Origin: an uncultured Rhodospirillales bacterium
GTDB taxonomy: Bacteria > Pseudomonadota > Alphaproteobacteria > Azospirillales > Azospirillaceae
Length of the DNA stretch: 34,562 nt
Direction: 5' to 3'
Assembly: GCA_903927615.1 (NCBI GenBank)
Contig: CAIYNU010000005.1
Coordinates: forward strand, 1-34,562
Position numbers and translations under genes: made by a program. The notes below the pieces were generated by a model that saw only the letters and a program-made list of their open reading frames with translations, had not been told where the DNA came from and did not search any database. Each line of letters begins with the position of its first letter. The stretch's first letter is position 1. Positions 17,689 through 24,781 of this stretch are shown piece by piece.

Positions 17689-20037
17689 TTACCCGGTTGC
17701 CGGGGCTGCGGCGATGAACGCCGCCAGCACCTTTTTGCGGCCGCCCTGGTCAAAATCGATTTCCAGCTTGTCGTGATCGACCGCGCGGACGGTGCCGGCG
17801 CCGAAGGTCGGATGCAGCACCCGGGATCCCGGCGCGTATGGGGTGCCGGTGGCCGGTCGGACCTCAACCCGGCGGGCAGACCCCTCGATCAGGGGCGGCG
17901 GGCGCTGGGGGCCGGTTCGGGGAAGGCCGGCGTGGGGGAAGGAGGAGGCTCCCCGGAAGCCGCCGCCGGAAACCGGTGGCGGGTGCATCTCGTCGTTTTC
18001 GATATGCTCGGCCGGCAATTCACCCAGGAACCGCGAGGGCAGGGTGTCGGTCCAGGTGGAATAGATGCGGCGGCGCCGGGCGTGGCTGATACAGGCCCGG
18101 CGGCGGGCGCGGGTCAGGCCGACATAGGCCAGCCGTCGTTCCTCTTCCAGGCCTGCCGCGCCGTTCTCTTCCATGGATCTCTGGCTGGGGAACAGGCCAT
18201 CCTCCCAGCCGGGCAGGAAGACCACGTCGAATTCCAGGCCCTTGGCGCCGTGCAGGGTCATGATGCTGACCTTGTCTTCGTTGCCGCCCTGGTTGGCCTC
18301 CATCACCAGCGCCACATGTTCAAGGAACCCTTGCAGGTTCTCGAAGTCGCCCATGCCGTTGATCAGTTCCTTGAGGTTGTCCAGCCGGCCGGGGGCTTCG
18401 GGTGTTTTGTCTTCCTGCCACATCCGGGTGTAGCCCGACTCGTCCAGAACCGTCCGGGCCAGATCGGTGTGGGCGATCCGCCCCTGGAGATCGCGCCAGC
18501 GTTCGAAGTCCTGGAGCAGGCTGCGTAACGCCTGACGCGGCTTGGGCTTGAGGTCGTCGGAGCCCGAGAGCTGCCAGGCCGCCTCGGTCATGGGGACGGC
18601 GTTGGCCCGTCGCACCTGATGGATCAGGTCCAGGGCCGCGGGGCCGATGCCGCGCTTGGGCAGGTTGATGATGCGCTCGAAGGCGAGGTCGTCGGCAGGC
18701 TGGGCGATGACCCGGAAATAGGCCAAGGCATCGCGGATTTCCTGGCGTTCGTAAAAGCGGGGGCCGCCGATCACCCGGTAGGGCAGGCCCAGGGTCAGGA
18801 ACCGTTCTTCGAATTCACGGGTCTGGGCACCGGTCCGCACCAACACCGCGATCTGCCCGAGGCTGGTGCCACGGCGCTGGTGGGCTTCGATTTCCTCTCC
18901 GACCCGGCGGGCTTCTTCCAGGCTGTCTTCCAGCCCCAGAATCCGGACCAGTTCACCGTCACCGGCGGCGGTCCACAGGGTCTTGCCCAGTCGCTTCTGA
19001 TTGTGGGCGATCAGTCCCGAGGCGGCGGCCAGGATATGGCCGCCCGACCGGTAATTCTCCTCCAGCCGGATCACCTGGGCGCCGGGGAAGTCCGTTTCAA
19101 AGCGCAGGATGTTGCCGATCTCGGCGCCGCGCCAGCCATAGATCGACTGGTCCTCGTCCCCGACACAGCATAGGTTGCGGTGCCCTTGGGCGAGCAGGCG
19201 CAACCACAAATATTGTGAGACGTTGGTATCCTGGTATTCGTCGACCAGCAGGTAGCGGAAGCGCCGATGATAAAGCGCCAGCACGTCCGGATGGGCCTGA
19301 AACACGGTCAGCATGTGTAACAACAGGTCGCCGAAATCACAGGCGTTGAGCGTCCGCAACCGGTCCTGGTAAGCGGTGTAAAGCGCCACCGCCTTGCCGG
19401 CGACCGCGTCCCCGGCCTCGGTTCGGGTGACCCGGTCGGGGGTCAGGCCCCGGTCCTTCCAGCGTTCGAACACCCCCAGCACCCGGCGCGGCGGCCATTT
19501 TTTGGGGTCGATCTTCGCATCGTCCAATAACTGCTTGACCAGTCGCTGTTGATCGTCGGTATCCAGGATGGTGAAGGCGCCGGTCAGCCCGACCAACTCG
19601 GCGTGCCGGCGCAGCATCCGTGCCGCCAGCGCGTGGAAGGTGCCGAGCCACCACCCTTCGACTCCGCTGGTCCCCAGCAGGGCCGCGACCCGGTCGCGCA
19701 TTTCCCGCGACGCCTTATTGGTGAACGTGACCGCCAGAATTTCGAACGGCGTCGCCCGGTGCGTGGTCAGCAGGTAGGCCAGCCGGGTGGTCAGCACTCG
19801 AGTCTTGCCGGTTCCGGCCCCGGCCAGCAGCAGGACCGGCCCGTCCAGGGCCTCCACCGCCCGGCGTTGCGCCGGATTGAGGCCGTCCAGGCTGAACCCG
19901 GGCGGCGGGGCCGCCTGTTCGGGGTCGGCCAGCGGCACGCCCGCCATCAGGTCGCCTAAAGGGTCGTCGGGCCAGGAGTCCTCGGGCGAGAACGAAGCGG
20001 GCGGGAGCGGGGCGGGGGAGAAGGGATCGGGCATCAT
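17689..20037 (-). CDS. uvrD: ATP-dependent DNA helicase UvrD/PcrA (superfamily 1)
   Basis: A 782-residue 3'-5' helicase used in nucleotide-excision and mismatch repair and in clearing RecA or RNA polymerase. After a 48-residue disordered extension rich in Pro and Asp comes the Q-motif LNPAQRRAV, Walker A LAGAGTGKT (71-79), motif Ia TFTNKASREM, motif II LLVDEYQDTN, motif III GDEDQSIYGWRGA, motif IV RLEENYRS, motif V TLHGAKGLEFDVVF, and motif VI YVGLTRARR. The C-terminus (SRVLHPTFGAGTV) is the Tudor-like domain that binds RNA polymerase. The first codons are ATGATG. No ribosome site is seen; a TATACT box lies 7 bases before the ATG. Confidence 0.96.
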   Translation of the reverse strand: MMPDPFSPAPLPPASFSPEDSWPDDPLGDLMAGVPLADPEQAAPPPGFSLDGLNPAQRRAVEALDGPVLLLAGAGTGKTRVLTTRLAYLLTTHRATPFEILAVTFTNKASREMRDRVAALLGTSGVEGWWLGTFHALAARMLRRHAELVGLTGAFTILDTDDQQRLVKQLLDDAKIDPKKWPPRRVLGVFERWKDRGLTPDRVTRTEAGDAVAGKAVALYTAYQDRLRTLNACDFGDLLLHMLTVFQAHPDVLALYHRRFRYLLVDEYQDTNVSQYLWLRLLAQGHRNLCCVGDEDQSIYGWRGAEIGNILRFETDFPGAQVIRLEENYRSGGHILAAASGLIAHNQKRLGKTLWTAAGDGELVRILGLEDSLEEARRVGEEIEAHQRRGTSLGQIAVLVRTGAQTREFEERFLTLGLPYRVIGGPRFYERQEIRDALAYFRVIAQPADDLAFERIINLPKRGIGPAALDLIHQVRRANAVPMTEAAWQLSGSDDLKPKPRQALRSLLQDFERWRDLQGRIAHTDLARTVLDESGYTRMWQEDKTPEAPGRLDNLKELINGMGDFENLQGFLEHVALVMEANQGGNEDKVSIMTLHGAKGLEFDVVFLPGWEDGLFPSQRSMEENGAAGLEEERRLAYVGLTRARRRACISHARRRRIYSTWTDTLPSRFLGELPAEHIENDEMHPPPVSGGGFRGASSFPHAGLPRTGPQRPPPLIEGSARRVEVRPATGTPYAPGSRVLHPTFGAGTVRAVDHDKLEIDFDQGGRKKVLAAFIAAAPATG

Positions 20038-20044
20038 GGCTGAC

Positions 20045-20050
20045 AGTATA
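20045..20050 (-). promoter_or_regulatory. Possible -10 box of a leaderless uvrD/pcrA transcript
   Basis: On the minus strand TATACT ends 7 bases before the uvrD ATG, so transcription could begin at or next to the start codon. No purine-rich ribosome site is seen in between. The -35 area (about 20068-20073) is not close to consensus, so this is weak. Confidence 0.3.
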
Positions 20051-20478
20051 CCACAGCATCGCCGTCGGGCAGCAGAGGATGATCCCGGCGAGCCGAAGCT
20101 TTGCCGTCATGAAGCCGCCCGATATCACCGGACCTGTTTATGGTTTGGGGAGTCCCTGCCGCGGCCGCGTGGGACCGGGATCGGCGCTGGCCCGGAGATC
20201 TGGACTGCGATCATGCCGGGTTCTTGGTCGATAAATTAACATTATTAATTGATACGTAGACAATATATACAATCAATAATGGCGATATGCCGGCCGCGGC
20301 CGCACCCCCCTCGGCCGCAACTCCCTCCCGATTGGCCAAGGTGACGCCGTGAACGATGATCGGTGAAAACAAAGGGGAATGAGCCATAGACCAGGGACCG
20401 CGACTTCAAGACAGTTTGTGCAATGCACCATACATGGCAGCGTTGCCGGTGGCCCGGATCGTTGCCGGCATGGCTCGA
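20051..20478. other. Intergenic region without a supported gene
   Basis: No reading frame here has a ribosome site or recognisable product. An AT-rich patch runs from about 20232 to 20280 and contains ATCAATAAT, a 9-mer also seen upstream of the orphan at 16222. A GCGGCCG/CGGCCGC inverted repeat (20296-20302 and 20312-20318) encloses CACCCCCCT. It may carry promoters for uvrD. An antisense frame at 20406-20669 (minus) was not judged real. Confidence 0.4.
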
Positions 20479-20507
20479 TTTACACCCTGAAACATCGGTG
20501 GTATGCT
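20479..20507 (+). promoter_or_regulatory. Likely sigma-70 promoter for the small ORF and the hydratase homologue
   Basis: TTTACA (20479-20484), a 17-base spacer, and TATGCT (20502-20507) match consensus at 5 of 6 and 4 of 6 positions. A start near 20514 would give a leader of about 74 bases before the small ORF at 20588 and reach the hydratase homologue at 20690. Confidence 0.5.
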
Positions 20508-20587
20508 TCCCCCGGCGAGCGAGGCCGTATTCCCGACCCGGAATGAGACTCGGGCTTTATTCTGATACTGTGTAAGGGAGGAAAACG

Positions 20588-20650
20588 GTGGGTTATTTCT
20601 ACAAGAGTATCGGCGGTTTTCCAGTGCTGATCTTTTCGGTCGACAAGTAA
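20588..20650 (+). CDS. Possible 20-residue small protein
   Basis: A GTG start with AAGGGAGGA ending 6 bases upstream opens a 20-codon frame, VGYFYKSIGGFPVLIFSVDK, ending TAA at 20648. The ribosome site is among the strongest in the window. The peptide is aromatic and hydrophobic with a basic residue near each end, so it could be a leader peptide or a small membrane-associated protein. It lies 81 bases after a good promoter and 39 bases before the hydratase homologue. It is too short for composition tests; a chance ORF cannot be excluded. Confidence 0.35.
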   Translation: MGYFYKSIGGFPVLIFSVDK

Positions 20651-20689
20651 GACCCAGCTCCAGAATCATGATCTGTCAGGAGGCAGCCG

Positions 20690-21418
20690 ATGGCCGGGGA
20701 CGCCAGGACCACCGAAAATATTGTCGTGGAACGCCGTGATCGGGTCGGACTGATCCGGCTTGACCGGCCCATGATCCTAACGGCGTTGTCGGTGTCGTAT
20801 TGTGTCGAACTGAATGCGGCTCTGGATGATTTGGCGGCGGACGACGACATTGGCGCCATCGTGCTGACCGGTTCCGACCACGCCTTCTCCGACCTGTTGC
20901 ACGACGCGGCCGACCATGCCGGCCGGGCCCACATCACCACCATAGGTAAGCCGGTGATCGCGGCGGTTGCTGGCTCTGTGCTGGGCGGCGGCTGCGAGCT
21001 GGCTATGATGTGCGACTTTATCCTGGCGGCTGATACGGCCCGGTTCGGCCCGCGGCCCGGGGCGGGTGGGCGTCAGGGGCTGACGTGGTTCGCAGGCACG
21101 TCCACCACGATGGAGATGGGGTGGCCTGACCGGTTGATGGACGCCGCCGAGGCGGAACGGGTGGGGCTGGTGTCCCGGGTGATTCCAGCGGCCGATCTGA
21201 TCGAGGAAGCGGTCAAGGTCGCCCAGATGATCGCCGGGATGTGTCCGTCGGTGATCATCACACTCAAGGAGGCCACCAACCGCGCCCGGGAAACCCCGCC
21301 GGCCGACGGACTCCGATCCGACTGCCCCTCCTTTTACGCCCCATGTGCCGTCGACGACCAGCCGGAGGGAATGCCCGCCGTCGCCGGGACGCGCCAATCC
21401 AAAATTCAGAACCATTAA
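20690..21418 (+). CDS. Degenerate enoyl-CoA hydratase/isomerase (crotonase) family protein
   Basis: A 242-residue crotonase homologue; the family is usually about 258. RVGLIRLDRP, DIGAIVLTGSDHAF, GKPVIAAVAGSVLGGGCELAMMCDFILAADTARFG, PGAGG, MDAAEAERVGLVSRVIPAADL and DQPEGMPAV align along the whole length. Glu103 (GGGCE) matches catalytic Glu144 of rat hydratase. The second catalytic Glu, in the QPEI stretch that normally joins FG to PGAGG, is missing: FGPRPGAGG shows a gap of about 7 residues. The oxyanion loop after HAF (normally AAGADIKEM) is shortened. A shifted LTG (see findings) suggests compensated indels. AGGAGG lies 6 bases before the ATG. It may be a pseudogene in decay or an inactive relative; the ORF is uninterrupted. 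Confidence 0.7.
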   Translation: MAGDARTTENIVVERRDRVGLIRLDRPMILTALSVSYCVELNAALDDLAADDDIGAIVLTGSDHAFSDLLHDAADHAGRAHITTIGKPVIAAVAGSVLGGGCELAMMCDFILAADTARFGPRPGAGGRQGLTWFAGTSTTMEMGWPDRLMDAAEAERVGLVSRVIPAADLIEEAVKVAQMIAGMCPSVIITLKEATNRARETPPADGLRSDCPSFYAPCAVDDQPEGMPAVAGTRQSKIQNH

Positions 21419-21508
21419 GCGGACTTGAAGTCCCGAGTCCCAAGGGCTGTTGGTGAAGGGGCCTGGGGGCACAGCCGCGTCTGCCATTCACCTGTTGAGG
21501 AGGAACTC

Positions 21509-24500
21509 TTGCCCGACGACACCGCTCTGGTTGGCCAGCCGGCCCGTGATGGCCACCGTTCGCGTCAGAGTCTGCGGTTCGTGACCGCGACCAGCCTGTT
21601 CGATGGCCATGATGCCGCCATCAACATCTTTCGACGGATGCTCCAGGCGGGCGGCGCCGAGGTGATTCATCTTGGGCATAACCGCTCTGTGGACGAGGTG
21701 GTGACGGCGGCGATCCAGGAGGATGCCCATGCCGTGGCCGTGAGTTCCTACCAGGGCGGCCATGTGGAGTACTTCAAATACATGGTGGACCTGCTGCGCG
21801 CGCGCGGCCGGCCGGACCTGAAGGTGTTCGGCGGCGGCGGCGGGGTCATCGTGCCCGACGAACGGGCCGACTTGCAGGGCTACGGCGTGACCCGGCTCTA
21901 TTCCCCGGAGGACGGGCTGCACCTGGGTTTGCAGGGCATCATTGCGGATATGCTGCGACGGGCCGACGGTGATCTGACTGCCGGGGCGGTGCCCGACTTC
22001 GGCGATCCGGCGGCGCTGACGGCGGGTGGCGGCGCCTTATTGGCCCGGTTGATCTCGGTGATCGAGGCGGGACGGTTGCCGGAGGATCAAGGTCAGGCGC
22101 TCCGGCAGGCCGCGGCGGCCAGCGCGGCGCCGGTATTGGGGGTGACCGGCACCGGGGGCGCCGGCAAGTCGTCCCTGACCGATGAATTGATCCGGCGTTT
22201 CCGGCTGTATAGCGGAGAGCCGAAAATCGCGGTCATTGCGGTGGATCCGACCCGCCGCCGCACCGGCGGCGCCTTGTTGGGTGACCGGATTCGGATGAAT
22301 GCCATCGGGGCGCCGAACGTCTTCATGCGGTCCTTGGCCACGCGCCACGCCGGCAACGAGGTGCCGGCCGCGGTGACCGACATCATTGCGGCGTGCAAGG
22401 TCGCCGGCTTTGATCTGGTGGTGGTCGAGACGCCGGGGATCGGCCAGGGCGATACCGGCATCGTTCCGTATGTGGACGTTCCGATTTACGTCATGACCCC
22501 GGAATATGGTGCGGCGAGCCAGCTTGAAAAGATCGATATGCTCGACTTCGCCCAGGTGGTGGTGATCAACAAATTCGATCGCAAGGGAGCGTTGGATGCG
22601 CTGCGCGATGTGCGCAAACAAGTTCAGCGCAACCGGGAAGCCTTCGGCACGCCCCCCGAACAGATGCCGGTGTTCGGGGCCATCGCCGCGCGGTTCAATG
22701 ATGTCGGCGTCACGGCGGTCTATCAGGAATTGCTGAGCATTCTGGCCGTCAAAGGGTTGGGCCGGTTGCCCGCGACCACCCTACCGCCGCTGTCGGTGCG
22801 GGCCTCGGATCCGGGTCACGCGGTGGTGCCGCCGTCGCGCCAGCGGTATCTGGCCGACATTGCCGCCACGGTGCGCGAGTACCATGGCGAGGTGCGCCAA
22901 CAGGTCAGCATCGCCCGGGAACGCCACCAGTTGCGCGCTGCCGCCGCCCTGTTGCGCGCCGCCGGCCGCCCGGACCAGGATGTCGAGGCCCTGGCCGGGG
23001 AACGTGACGCCGCGCTTGATCCCCGTTGCCGCAAGCTGCTGGCCATGTGGCCCAAAGTGCGCGAGAGCTACGCCGGCGATCAGTATCTTGTCCGCATCCG
23101 CGATCGGGAGATCAGGACTTCGCTGACCGGCACATCGTTGTCCGGTACCCGCATTCCAAAGGTGGTGCTGCCGCGTTTCGAAGACGAGGGCGAGATTCTG
23201 CGGTGGGTGTTGCTGGAGAACGTGCCGGGCAGCTTCCCCTATACCGCCGGCGTGTTTGCTTTTAAGCGCGAGAACGAGGATCCGACCCGGATGTTCGCCG
23301 GGGAGGGCGACGCTTTCCGGACCAATCACCGCTTCAAGTATCTGTCCAAGGATACCAAGTCCAAGCGCCTGTCCACCGCCTTTGATTCGGTCACGCTGTA
23401 TGGTTTCGATCCGGCCCTGCGCCCGGATATTTACGGCAAGGTCGGCAATTCCGGCGTATCGATTGCCACTCTCGACGACCTCAAGGTCCTTTATGACGGC
23501 TTTGATCTGTGCGATCCGATGACCTCGGTGTCCATGACCATCAACGGGCCGGCACCGACGATTTTGGCCATGTTTCTCAACACGGCCATTGATGGCCAGG
23601 TGGATCGTTTCGAAAGCGACAACGGCCGGCCGCCAACCGACGAAGAGATCGACAAGATTCGGGCCTGGGTGCTGGAAAATGTCCGGGGCACGGTCCAAGC
23701 TGACATCCTGAAGGAAGACCAGGGACAGAATACCTGCATCTTTTCGACCGAATTCGCACTGCGGATGATGGCAGATATTCAGGATTGGTTTGTTCACCAT
23801 AATGTCCGTAACTTCTATTCGGTGTCGATTTCGGGCTATCACATCGCCGAAGCAGGCGCCAATCCCATCTCGCAACTGGCCTTTACGCTCGCCAACGGCT
23901 TTACCTATGTCGAGGCCTATCTTGCGCGCGGCATGCAGATTGACGACTTTGCGCCCAATCTGTCGTTCTTCTTCTCCAACGGCATGGAACCGGAATATTC
24001 GGTGATGGGGCGGGTCGCCCGCCGCATCTGGTCCACCGCCATCCGGTTCCGCTACGGTGGTAACGAGCGGTCCCAGAAGCTGAAATATCATATTCAGACC
24101 TCTGGCCGGTCTCTGCATGCCCAGGAGATGGACTTCAACGACATCCGGACCACACTTCAGGCATTGATCGCGGTTTACGACAACTGCAACAGCCTGCACA
24201 CCAACGCCCATGACGAGGCCTTCACCACCCCGACCGCGGAAAGCGTGCGCCGGGCGCTGGCGATCCAGATGGTGATCAACCGCGAGTGGGGCCTGGCCAT
24301 CAATGAGAACCCCAACCAGGGCGCCTTCATCATCGAGGAATTGACCGATCTGGTCGAAGAGGCGGTGCTGGCCGAATTCGAACGGCTGTCGGAGCGTGGC
24401 GGCGTGCTGGGGGCCATGGAAACCGGCTATCAGCGCGGGCGCATCCAGGACGAGTCTCTTCACTACGAGACCTTGAAGCATGACGGCCGATTGCCGATTG

Positions 24501-24781
24501 TCGGCGTCAACACCTTCCTCAATCCCGAACCCGGTCCGGCGGTGGTGCCCAAGCTCCAACGCTCGTCGGACGACGAAAAGCAGAACCAACTCCAACGGCT
24601 GGCCGATTTCCACCGCCGCCATGCCGTCAGCGCCCAGCATGTGCTGACGCGCCTCAAGCAGGCGGCAACCACCGACCAGAATCTGTTCGGAGTCTTGATG
24701 GACGCGGTGCGGTACTGCTCGTTGGGGCAGATCACCGAGGCCTTGTTCGAAGTGGGGGGGCAGTACCGCCGGAATATGTAA
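21509..24781 (+). CDS. icmF: Fused acyl-CoA mutase IcmF (methylmalonyl/isobutyryl-CoA mutase family)
   Basis: A 1090-residue adenosylcobalamin enzyme that moves a carbonyl-CoA group, converting isobutyryl-CoA and butyryl-CoA and, in some relatives, isovaleryl-CoA. It holds three parts. Residues 20-160 form the B12-binding domain with SLFDGHDAA (His34 is the lower axial ligand) and GGGGVIVPDE. Residues 205-430 form the G-protein chaperone with Walker A GTGGAGKSS and NKFD. From about 530 comes the substrate-binding barrel, with GSFPYTAGVFAFKREN and SISGYHIAEAGANPISQLA (catalytic His near 778). The start is TTG at 21509 with GAGGAGG 5 bases upstream; there is no better start. The hydratase homologue 90 bases upstream may be co-transcribed. 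It is a complete gene. Confidence 0.93.
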   Translation: MPDDTALVGQPARDGHRSRQSLRFVTATSLFDGHDAAINIFRRMLQAGGAEVIHLGHNRSVDEVVTAAIQEDAHAVAVSSYQGGHVEYFKYMVDLLRARGRPDLKVFGGGGGVIVPDERADLQGYGVTRLYSPEDGLHLGLQGIIADMLRRADGDLTAGAVPDFGDPAALTAGGGALLARLISVIEAGRLPEDQGQALRQAAAASAAPVLGVTGTGGAGKSSLTDELIRRFRLYSGEPKIAVIAVDPTRRRTGGALLGDRIRMNAIGAPNVFMRSLATRHAGNEVPAAVTDIIAACKVAGFDLVVVETPGIGQGDTGIVPYVDVPIYVMTPEYGAASQLEKIDMLDFAQVVVINKFDRKGALDALRDVRKQVQRNREAFGTPPEQMPVFGAIAARFNDVGVTAVYQELLSILAVKGLGRLPATTLPPLSVRASDPGHAVVPPSRQRYLADIAATVREYHGEVRQQVSIARERHQLRAAAALLRAAGRPDQDVEALAGERDAALDPRCRKLLAMWPKVRESYAGDQYLVRIRDREIRTSLTGTSLSGTRIPKVVLPRFEDEGEILRWVLLENVPGSFPYTAGVFAFKRENEDPTRMFAGEGDAFRTNHRFKYLSKDTKSKRLSTAFDSVTLYGFDPALRPDIYGKVGNSGVSIATLDDLKVLYDGFDLCDPMTSVSMTINGPAPTILAMFLNTAIDGQVDRFESDNGRPPTDEEIDKIRAWVLENVRGTVQADILKEDQGQNTCIFSTEFALRMMADIQDWFVHHNVRNFYSVSISGYHIAEAGANPISQLAFTLANGFTYVEAYLARGMQIDDFAPNLSFFFSNGMEPEYSVMGRVARRIWSTAIRFRYGGNERSQKLKYHIQTSGRSLHAQEMDFNDIRTTLQALIAVYDNCNSLHTNAHDEAFTTPTAESVRRALAIQMVINREWGLAINENPNQGAFIIEELTDLVEEAVLAEFERLSERGGVLGAMETGYQRGRIQDESLHYETLKHDGRLPIVGVNTFLNPEPGPAVVPKLQRSSDDEKQNQLQRLADFHRRHAVSAQHVLTRLKQAATTDQNLFGVLMDAVRYCSLGQITEALFEVGGQYRRNM

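Follow-up and report, generated by a model that had tools for sequence, protein, structure and literature searches.

The closest described counterparts of the gene analysed here are the canonical short-chain enoyl-CoA hydratases (ECH), as represented by the PRK05862 model, rat mitochondrial ECH/ECHS1, AcuH (5xzd) and EchA8 (3q0g); the residue numbers used below (Ala98, Gly141, Glu144 and Glu164) are presumably those of the rat enzyme. Isomerases of the crotonase family also need the oxyanion loop, and methylmalonyl-CoA decarboxylase (PRK11423), a member of the same crotonase superfamily as the protein considered here, has an acyl-CoA chemistry related to mutases. In PMC13126182, Ala98 in loop-2 is described as one of two oxyanion NH donors and Gly141 as the other, loop-2 also supplies an adenine contact, Glu144 serves to activate water, and C2 receives its proton from Glu164. 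Enoyl-CoA isomerases (ECI), according to PMC13126182, use one catalytic glutamate, which lies either at the position of Glu164 or close to Gly172.

In the window (the whole stretch of DNA that was analysed, 34,562 nt), an eroded ECH (crotonase) ORF encodes a protein of 242 aa that resembles canonical ECH in full-length sequence, in a GGGCE motif with Gly141 and Glu144, and in its match to the ECH fold, but differs from it by deletion of the loop-2 donor and of the Glu164 loop, by seemingly degraded C-terminal helices and by a score of 226 bits against PRK05862, its top NCBIfam model, which is under the equivalog cutoff of 396. Compared with ECI, the window protein is without the first glutamate-bearing loop, and its second loop (PGAGG) is without Glu. 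With regard to methylmalonyl-CoA decarboxylase, PRK11423 does not appear in the list of the 25 top-scoring models of the window protein, and the genome holds a separate copy over the cutoff (L003:1438-2265; 335.8 bits, cutoff 257) as well as a second methylmalonyl-CoA decarboxylase-like ORF (L004:1354-2292), called by eye. We consider that in-frame decay of a canonical short-chain ECH gene probably accounts for this locus.

The gene and its catalytic parts

The ORF (20690..21418, forward strand; assigned from ORF calls and from profile and structure-database sequence matches) runs in an uninterrupted frame from an ATG start to a TAA end. PF00378 matches its product with 138.8 bits (cutoff 27) over positions 3-246 of the 251 in the profile, i.e., over the full length; the nearest solved structures by sequence are AcuH (5xzd) and next mycobacterial and mitochondrial ECH, and identity to 25 homologues (alignment A1) is 47-54%. 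A ribosome-binding site, AGGAGG, read directly at 20678..20683 (forward strand), lies 6 nt ahead of the ATG, and a promoter-like site, TTTACA-17-TATGCT with TG (20479..20507, forward strand), was found as a consensus match only, one of three promoter-like sites across 20038-21520 versus 0.6 ± 0.8 in shuffles. Upstream, the divergent neighbour on the reverse strand (17689..20037, ORF calls) is presumably a uvrD-type helicase. GC3 of the gene is 0.79, and that of six neighbouring genes is 0.73-0.84; horizontal acquisition, which was also considered, is unsupported, GC3 being like that of the neighbours, but phylogenetic placement is weak owing to the long branch. On the opposite strand, a 236-aa open frame occupies 20777-21487, and 22 of the 29 homologue loci match its translation; this frame is probably a consequence of codon usage.

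Homologue alignments place the junctions of two gaps within the gene, at 20888..20893 and 21053..21058 (both forward strand). The former is a gap of 14 codons after Ser67 (window 20890/20891), opposite AGADIKEM of oxyanion loop-2 in 29 homologues from the family and class; how this gap is split varies with the aligner, a DNA alignment giving 24 + 18 nt. The latter, a gap of 7 codons after Arg122 (window 21055/21056), takes out the Glu of QPE present in the 29 homologues and, with it, the Glu164 loop. GGGCE (residues 99-103; 20984..20998, forward strand) is retained and aligns as the counterpart of Gly141 and Glu144, with residue roles taken from PMC13126182; catalytic positions were mapped via the motifs AGADIK, GGGCE and QPE, not through residue-by-residue alignment to rat ECH. 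Across 110 homologues (29 from a whole-genome search with the window protein, one more, and the best 80 of 559 found), a set that includes close relatives and one identical pair and from which 81 are left under 90% identity, loop-2 reads AGAD in 109 and AGVD in one and is gapped in none, all 110 carry GGGCE as well as the Glu of QPE or of a variant motif, and no relative with either gap was seen. Because the loop-2 donor and the Glu164 loop are absent from its sequence, the window protein is very likely no longer a hydratase.

At 21117..21134 (forward strand), a shifted-frame 8-mer scan located the scar left by a 4-nt register shift and by the change that compensates it, where the LTG of the family reads GWPD. 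CTGACCGG at 21126 finds its match in 24 of 29 homologues, and only at register -4 relative to the in-frame alignment; it sits in the gene's sole cluster of shifted 8-mers, in which three overlapping 8-mers recur in at least 7 homologues; the shift region covers 21124-21134, and the frame is back within about five codons. No shifted 8-mer recurring in 5 or more others was found in a control scan of nine homologues. A 4-nt shift closed within some five codons supports a paired-indel reading. A search for further out-of-frame remains (8-residue consensus windows in the other two frames) gave one weak match, at the very C-terminus, which was put down to chance, since the DNA aligns well in frame there.

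A preliminary description of this DNA had reported a clear full-length family alignment, a strong ribosome site and promoter, the absence of the oxyanion loop and of the second catalytic Glu region, and a family LTG readable in a shifted frame, hence paired indels. These claims agree, respectively, with the PF00378 match, with AGGAGG and the three promoter-like sites as consensus matches, with the 14- and 7-codon gaps seen in none of the 110 homologues, and with CTGACCGG at register -4.

Divergence, predicted structure and pattern of change

Among the 95 columns that are at least 95% conserved, the window protein keeps 65, has 21 substituted and 9 deleted. In leave-one-out comparisons over the 110 homologues, 46 of its residues occur at their column in no other sequence (the others have a mean of 2.4 such residues and at most 15), seven of its prolines are never seen at their positions elsewhere (mean 0.04 and at most 1 in the others), and 21 conserved columns are changed (at most 5 in the others); with near-duplicates removed (81 homologues), these three counts are 46, 7 and 20 versus at most 16, 1 and 7. 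It also has four lysines, versus a homologue mean of 14. The window gene has a terminal branch of 0.97 substitutions per site in a tree built with 29 homologues, where the next longest is 0.33, and in a second tree, which includes a copy from congener G001, the G001 branch (1.44) is longer than that of the window gene (1.08). Judged by these trees, the window gene is not the sole fast one, the G001 copy being faster despite intact active-site motifs.

AlphaFold2 gave the window protein a mean pLDDT of 65.9, with residues 70-78, 123-136, 201-216 and 218-242 below 50, and gave an intact, presumed Skermanella homologue, modelled with the same 26 sequences, 80.2, with only residues 19-23 below 50; this control is itself unsteady and the alignment shallow (26 sequences), and, as the ranges over all five models lie nearer (63.4-65.9 versus 67.6-80.2), the contrast with the control is smaller than these means imply. 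Foldseek ranks ECH structures first for the window model. C-terminal helices of crotonases supply oligomer contacts, and those of the window protein (residues 201-242; 21290..21415, forward strand) appear degraded, holding five of the seven never-seen prolines and having a pLDDT of 35-45, versus 65-85 in the control, although low confidence is not proof of disorder. Phe279 of the C-terminal helix H10 contacts CoA, according to PMC13126182.

Departures from consensus number 10 of 52 at invariant columns, 11 of 34 at columns conserved to 95-99.9%, 12 of 36 at 85-95%, 21 of 35 at 70-85%, and 19 of 38 at 50-70%; the family's own expected departures in these five bins are about 0, 0.7, 3.6, 7.5 and 14.8. 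Losses thus fall on strictly and loosely conserved columns alike. Unprecedented residues are clustered (p 0.005 by the runs test; p 0.008 to 0.17 by window variance, according to window size), with none in segments 97-120 and 148-179, and a runs test on 80%-conserved columns gave p 0.004; the signal is weak at 95%-conserved columns (p 0.18 by the runs test; by window variance, p 0.04 for a width of 10 and above 0.13 at wider settings). Strongly conserved columns are changed in 2 of 38 cases in blocks 86-120 and 148-184 versus 16 of 34 in 121-147 and 185-242, a difference whose chi-square p of 0.0008 is to be discounted, as the regions were picked after looking. In a neutral substitution simulation from one homologue, 8.5-12% of runs with 57 of 235 codons changed were stop-free, and 4-38% with 30 to 70 changes; both gaps are multiples of three (42 and 21 nt). 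The spared segments suggest that constraint may have lasted in parts of the protein, and the open frame, the in-frame gaps and the two little-changed blocks stand against purely neutral decay. Selection that ended recently, selection acting on a portion of the protein, or a frame held open upstream of icmF would each fit this pattern.

Crotonases in the genome and genus

The genome that contains the window (4.57 Mb, 104 contigs, 98.4% complete) has six PF00378 places, the window gene included, and no intact PRK05862-class ECH was found among the other five (four scanned, the fifth by eye). Fatty-acid oxidation genes still in this genome include four acyl-CoA dehydrogenase matches and two strong 3-hydroxyacyl-CoA dehydrogenase matches. 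A fused 3-hydroxyacyl-CoA dehydrogenase-crotonase (HCDH-ECH) scores below every curated cutoff listed; its crotonase part reads GGGCEL and VETG, and both glutamates are present by eye.

The gene at L146:2919-3704 is of PRK08139 class (414.4 bits, cutoff 313), for which the NCBIfam name is enoyl-CoA hydratase; where the two catalytic glutamates would lie, its translation has, by eye, GCQ and TPG, with glutamate at neither position. A formyltransferase-crotonase fusion lies at L144:834-2567 (reverse strand) and resembles what we take to be the hydrogenase maturation protein HypX.

Four congeners, all draft genomes (91-100% complete), were searched in full with the window protein and gave best E-values of 1.7e-26 (G001), 1.7e-13, 1.9e-7 and 6.4e-10; three of the four thus have no close match to the window ECH, and other crotonases are present there. 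The G001 copy (L034:1813-2466, contig C222) is, like the window gene, a damaged copy of the same class in the same genus, with PRK05862 as its top model and a score under the cutoff (242.3 bits). It differs from the window gene in that loops and both glutamates are intact and that it matches profile positions 37-251 only, with positions before 37 unmatched; its N-terminal part was not found in the 8 kb searched. The G001 copy is 50% identical to the presumed Skermanella ECH versus 41% to the window gene, and a weakly supported tree does not place the two genes of the genus as sisters. A search of the congeners for DNA remnants of the gene gave a best match of 5e-7, in the G001 copy, and many other short matches (E up to 1) that were taken as chance. 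By comparison, a match with an E-value of 1e-55 or lower is present in 55 of 82 genomes of the wider family, a count that takes in the window genome. The PRK05862-class ECH appears to be disappearing from the genus, an extent of loss that incomplete drafts could exaggerate.

Decay and its alternatives beside icmF

In-frame decay fits best, given the damage that the active site and the C-terminal helices show together, the long branch, the prolines in helices, a genome in which no intact member of the class was found, and congeners in which the class is lost or damaged. In-frame deletions would have removed loop-2 and the Glu164 loop, leaving the other oxyanion glycine and Glu144, and further changes would have struck the C-terminal helices and the stretch that follows Glu164; the gene may be eroding while its frame remains open, within a broader disappearance of this ECH class from the genus, and other genes, e.g., the fused dehydrogenase-crotonase, may cover fatty-acid oxidation. 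Activity loss, relaxed selection and redundancy are what we infer here. With regard to a disrupted reading frame as a mark of pseudogenes, the ORF is open and has only the compensated register shift. Such decay is an ordinary kind of gene-loss event, here well preserved; the gene would show a stage at which an enzyme is on its way from function to loss while the frame is still open, and best-match annotation would label it a functional enoyl-CoA hydratase and so credit the organism, wrongly, with having the canonical enzyme. To the extent that titles and the starts of abstracts tell, literature on crotonase pseudoenzymes, on IcmF together with ECH, and on in-frame-deleted ECH pseudogenes seemed to describe no such case. 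The preliminary description had left a choice between decay and a retooled, non-catalytic crotonase next to icmF, had named orthologues sharing the deletions as evidence against decay, and had proposed a search for an intact paralogue. The decay part fits best, given the branch, the prolines and the congeners, whereas retooling found no positive support; none of the 110 homologues is gapped, and no paralogue of PRK05862 class over the cutoff is present among the four other PF00378 places of the genome that were scanned.

The gene named icmF (isobutyryl-CoA mutase fused; 21509..24781, forward strand) was delimited by ORF calls and takes its name from the preliminary description, not from a profile scan. 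It is present in all five genus genomes (78-100% identity), and no match at a strict E of 1e-300 was found in 76 other family genomes searched. Its upstream context differs among the four congeners, where no match to the window ECH lies beside icmF at E 1e-10 in 10-18 kb, and only weak matches (E up to 10) occur within the loci. Of 80 ECH loci elsewhere (at most 6 kb of flank each, some less), two, both from Nocardia, hold an icmF stretch (58% and 63% identity), and one further locus has a 33% mutase-like stretch. An origin of the window gene as a relict of an older icmF-linked operon was considered and is unsupported, since upstream genes differ in congeners and icmF is found in only those 2 of 80 ECH loci.

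The open frame, the strong ribosome site, the gap lengths in multiples of three and the clustering of changes, including the contrast between regions chosen post hoc, would also be expected of a retained non-catalytic crotonase (for binding, scaffolding or as a subunit) that is held by blocks 86-120 and 148-184. We regard such retention as unlikely, however, as the C-terminal helices, which include the CoA contact Phe279 of PMC13126182, hold five new prolines and are predicted with low confidence, the form is seen in none of the 110 homologues, and linkage with icmF is conserved neither in congeners nor in the 80 ECH loci. A more specific version, a crotonase minus loop-2 and the Glu164 loop in which selection keeps the frame and residues 86-120 and 148-184, and which might act as an acyl-CoA binder or an IcmF partner, is slightly more doubtful again; if retained for a non-catalytic role, the protein would be an uncommon crotonase pseudoenzyme. 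A dead protein whose frame is held open to avoid polarity on icmF is improbable: icmF follows on the same strand after 90 nt that contain no terminator-like site, it is kept throughout the genus, and the register shift is seemingly compensated within five codons, but polarity leaves the clustering of amino-acid changes unexplained, and icmF carries its own ribosome-site-like GAGGAGGA, co-transcription being putative. A sequencing or assembly artefact, for which the register shift near 21124 could represent an error pair, is very improbable, as in-frame gaps of 42 and 21 nt and 46 scattered unprecedented residues are unlike sequencing errors; moreover, icmF and the next three genes, presumably aroK, aroB and a haemolysin-like gene, are found in the same order in congener G004.
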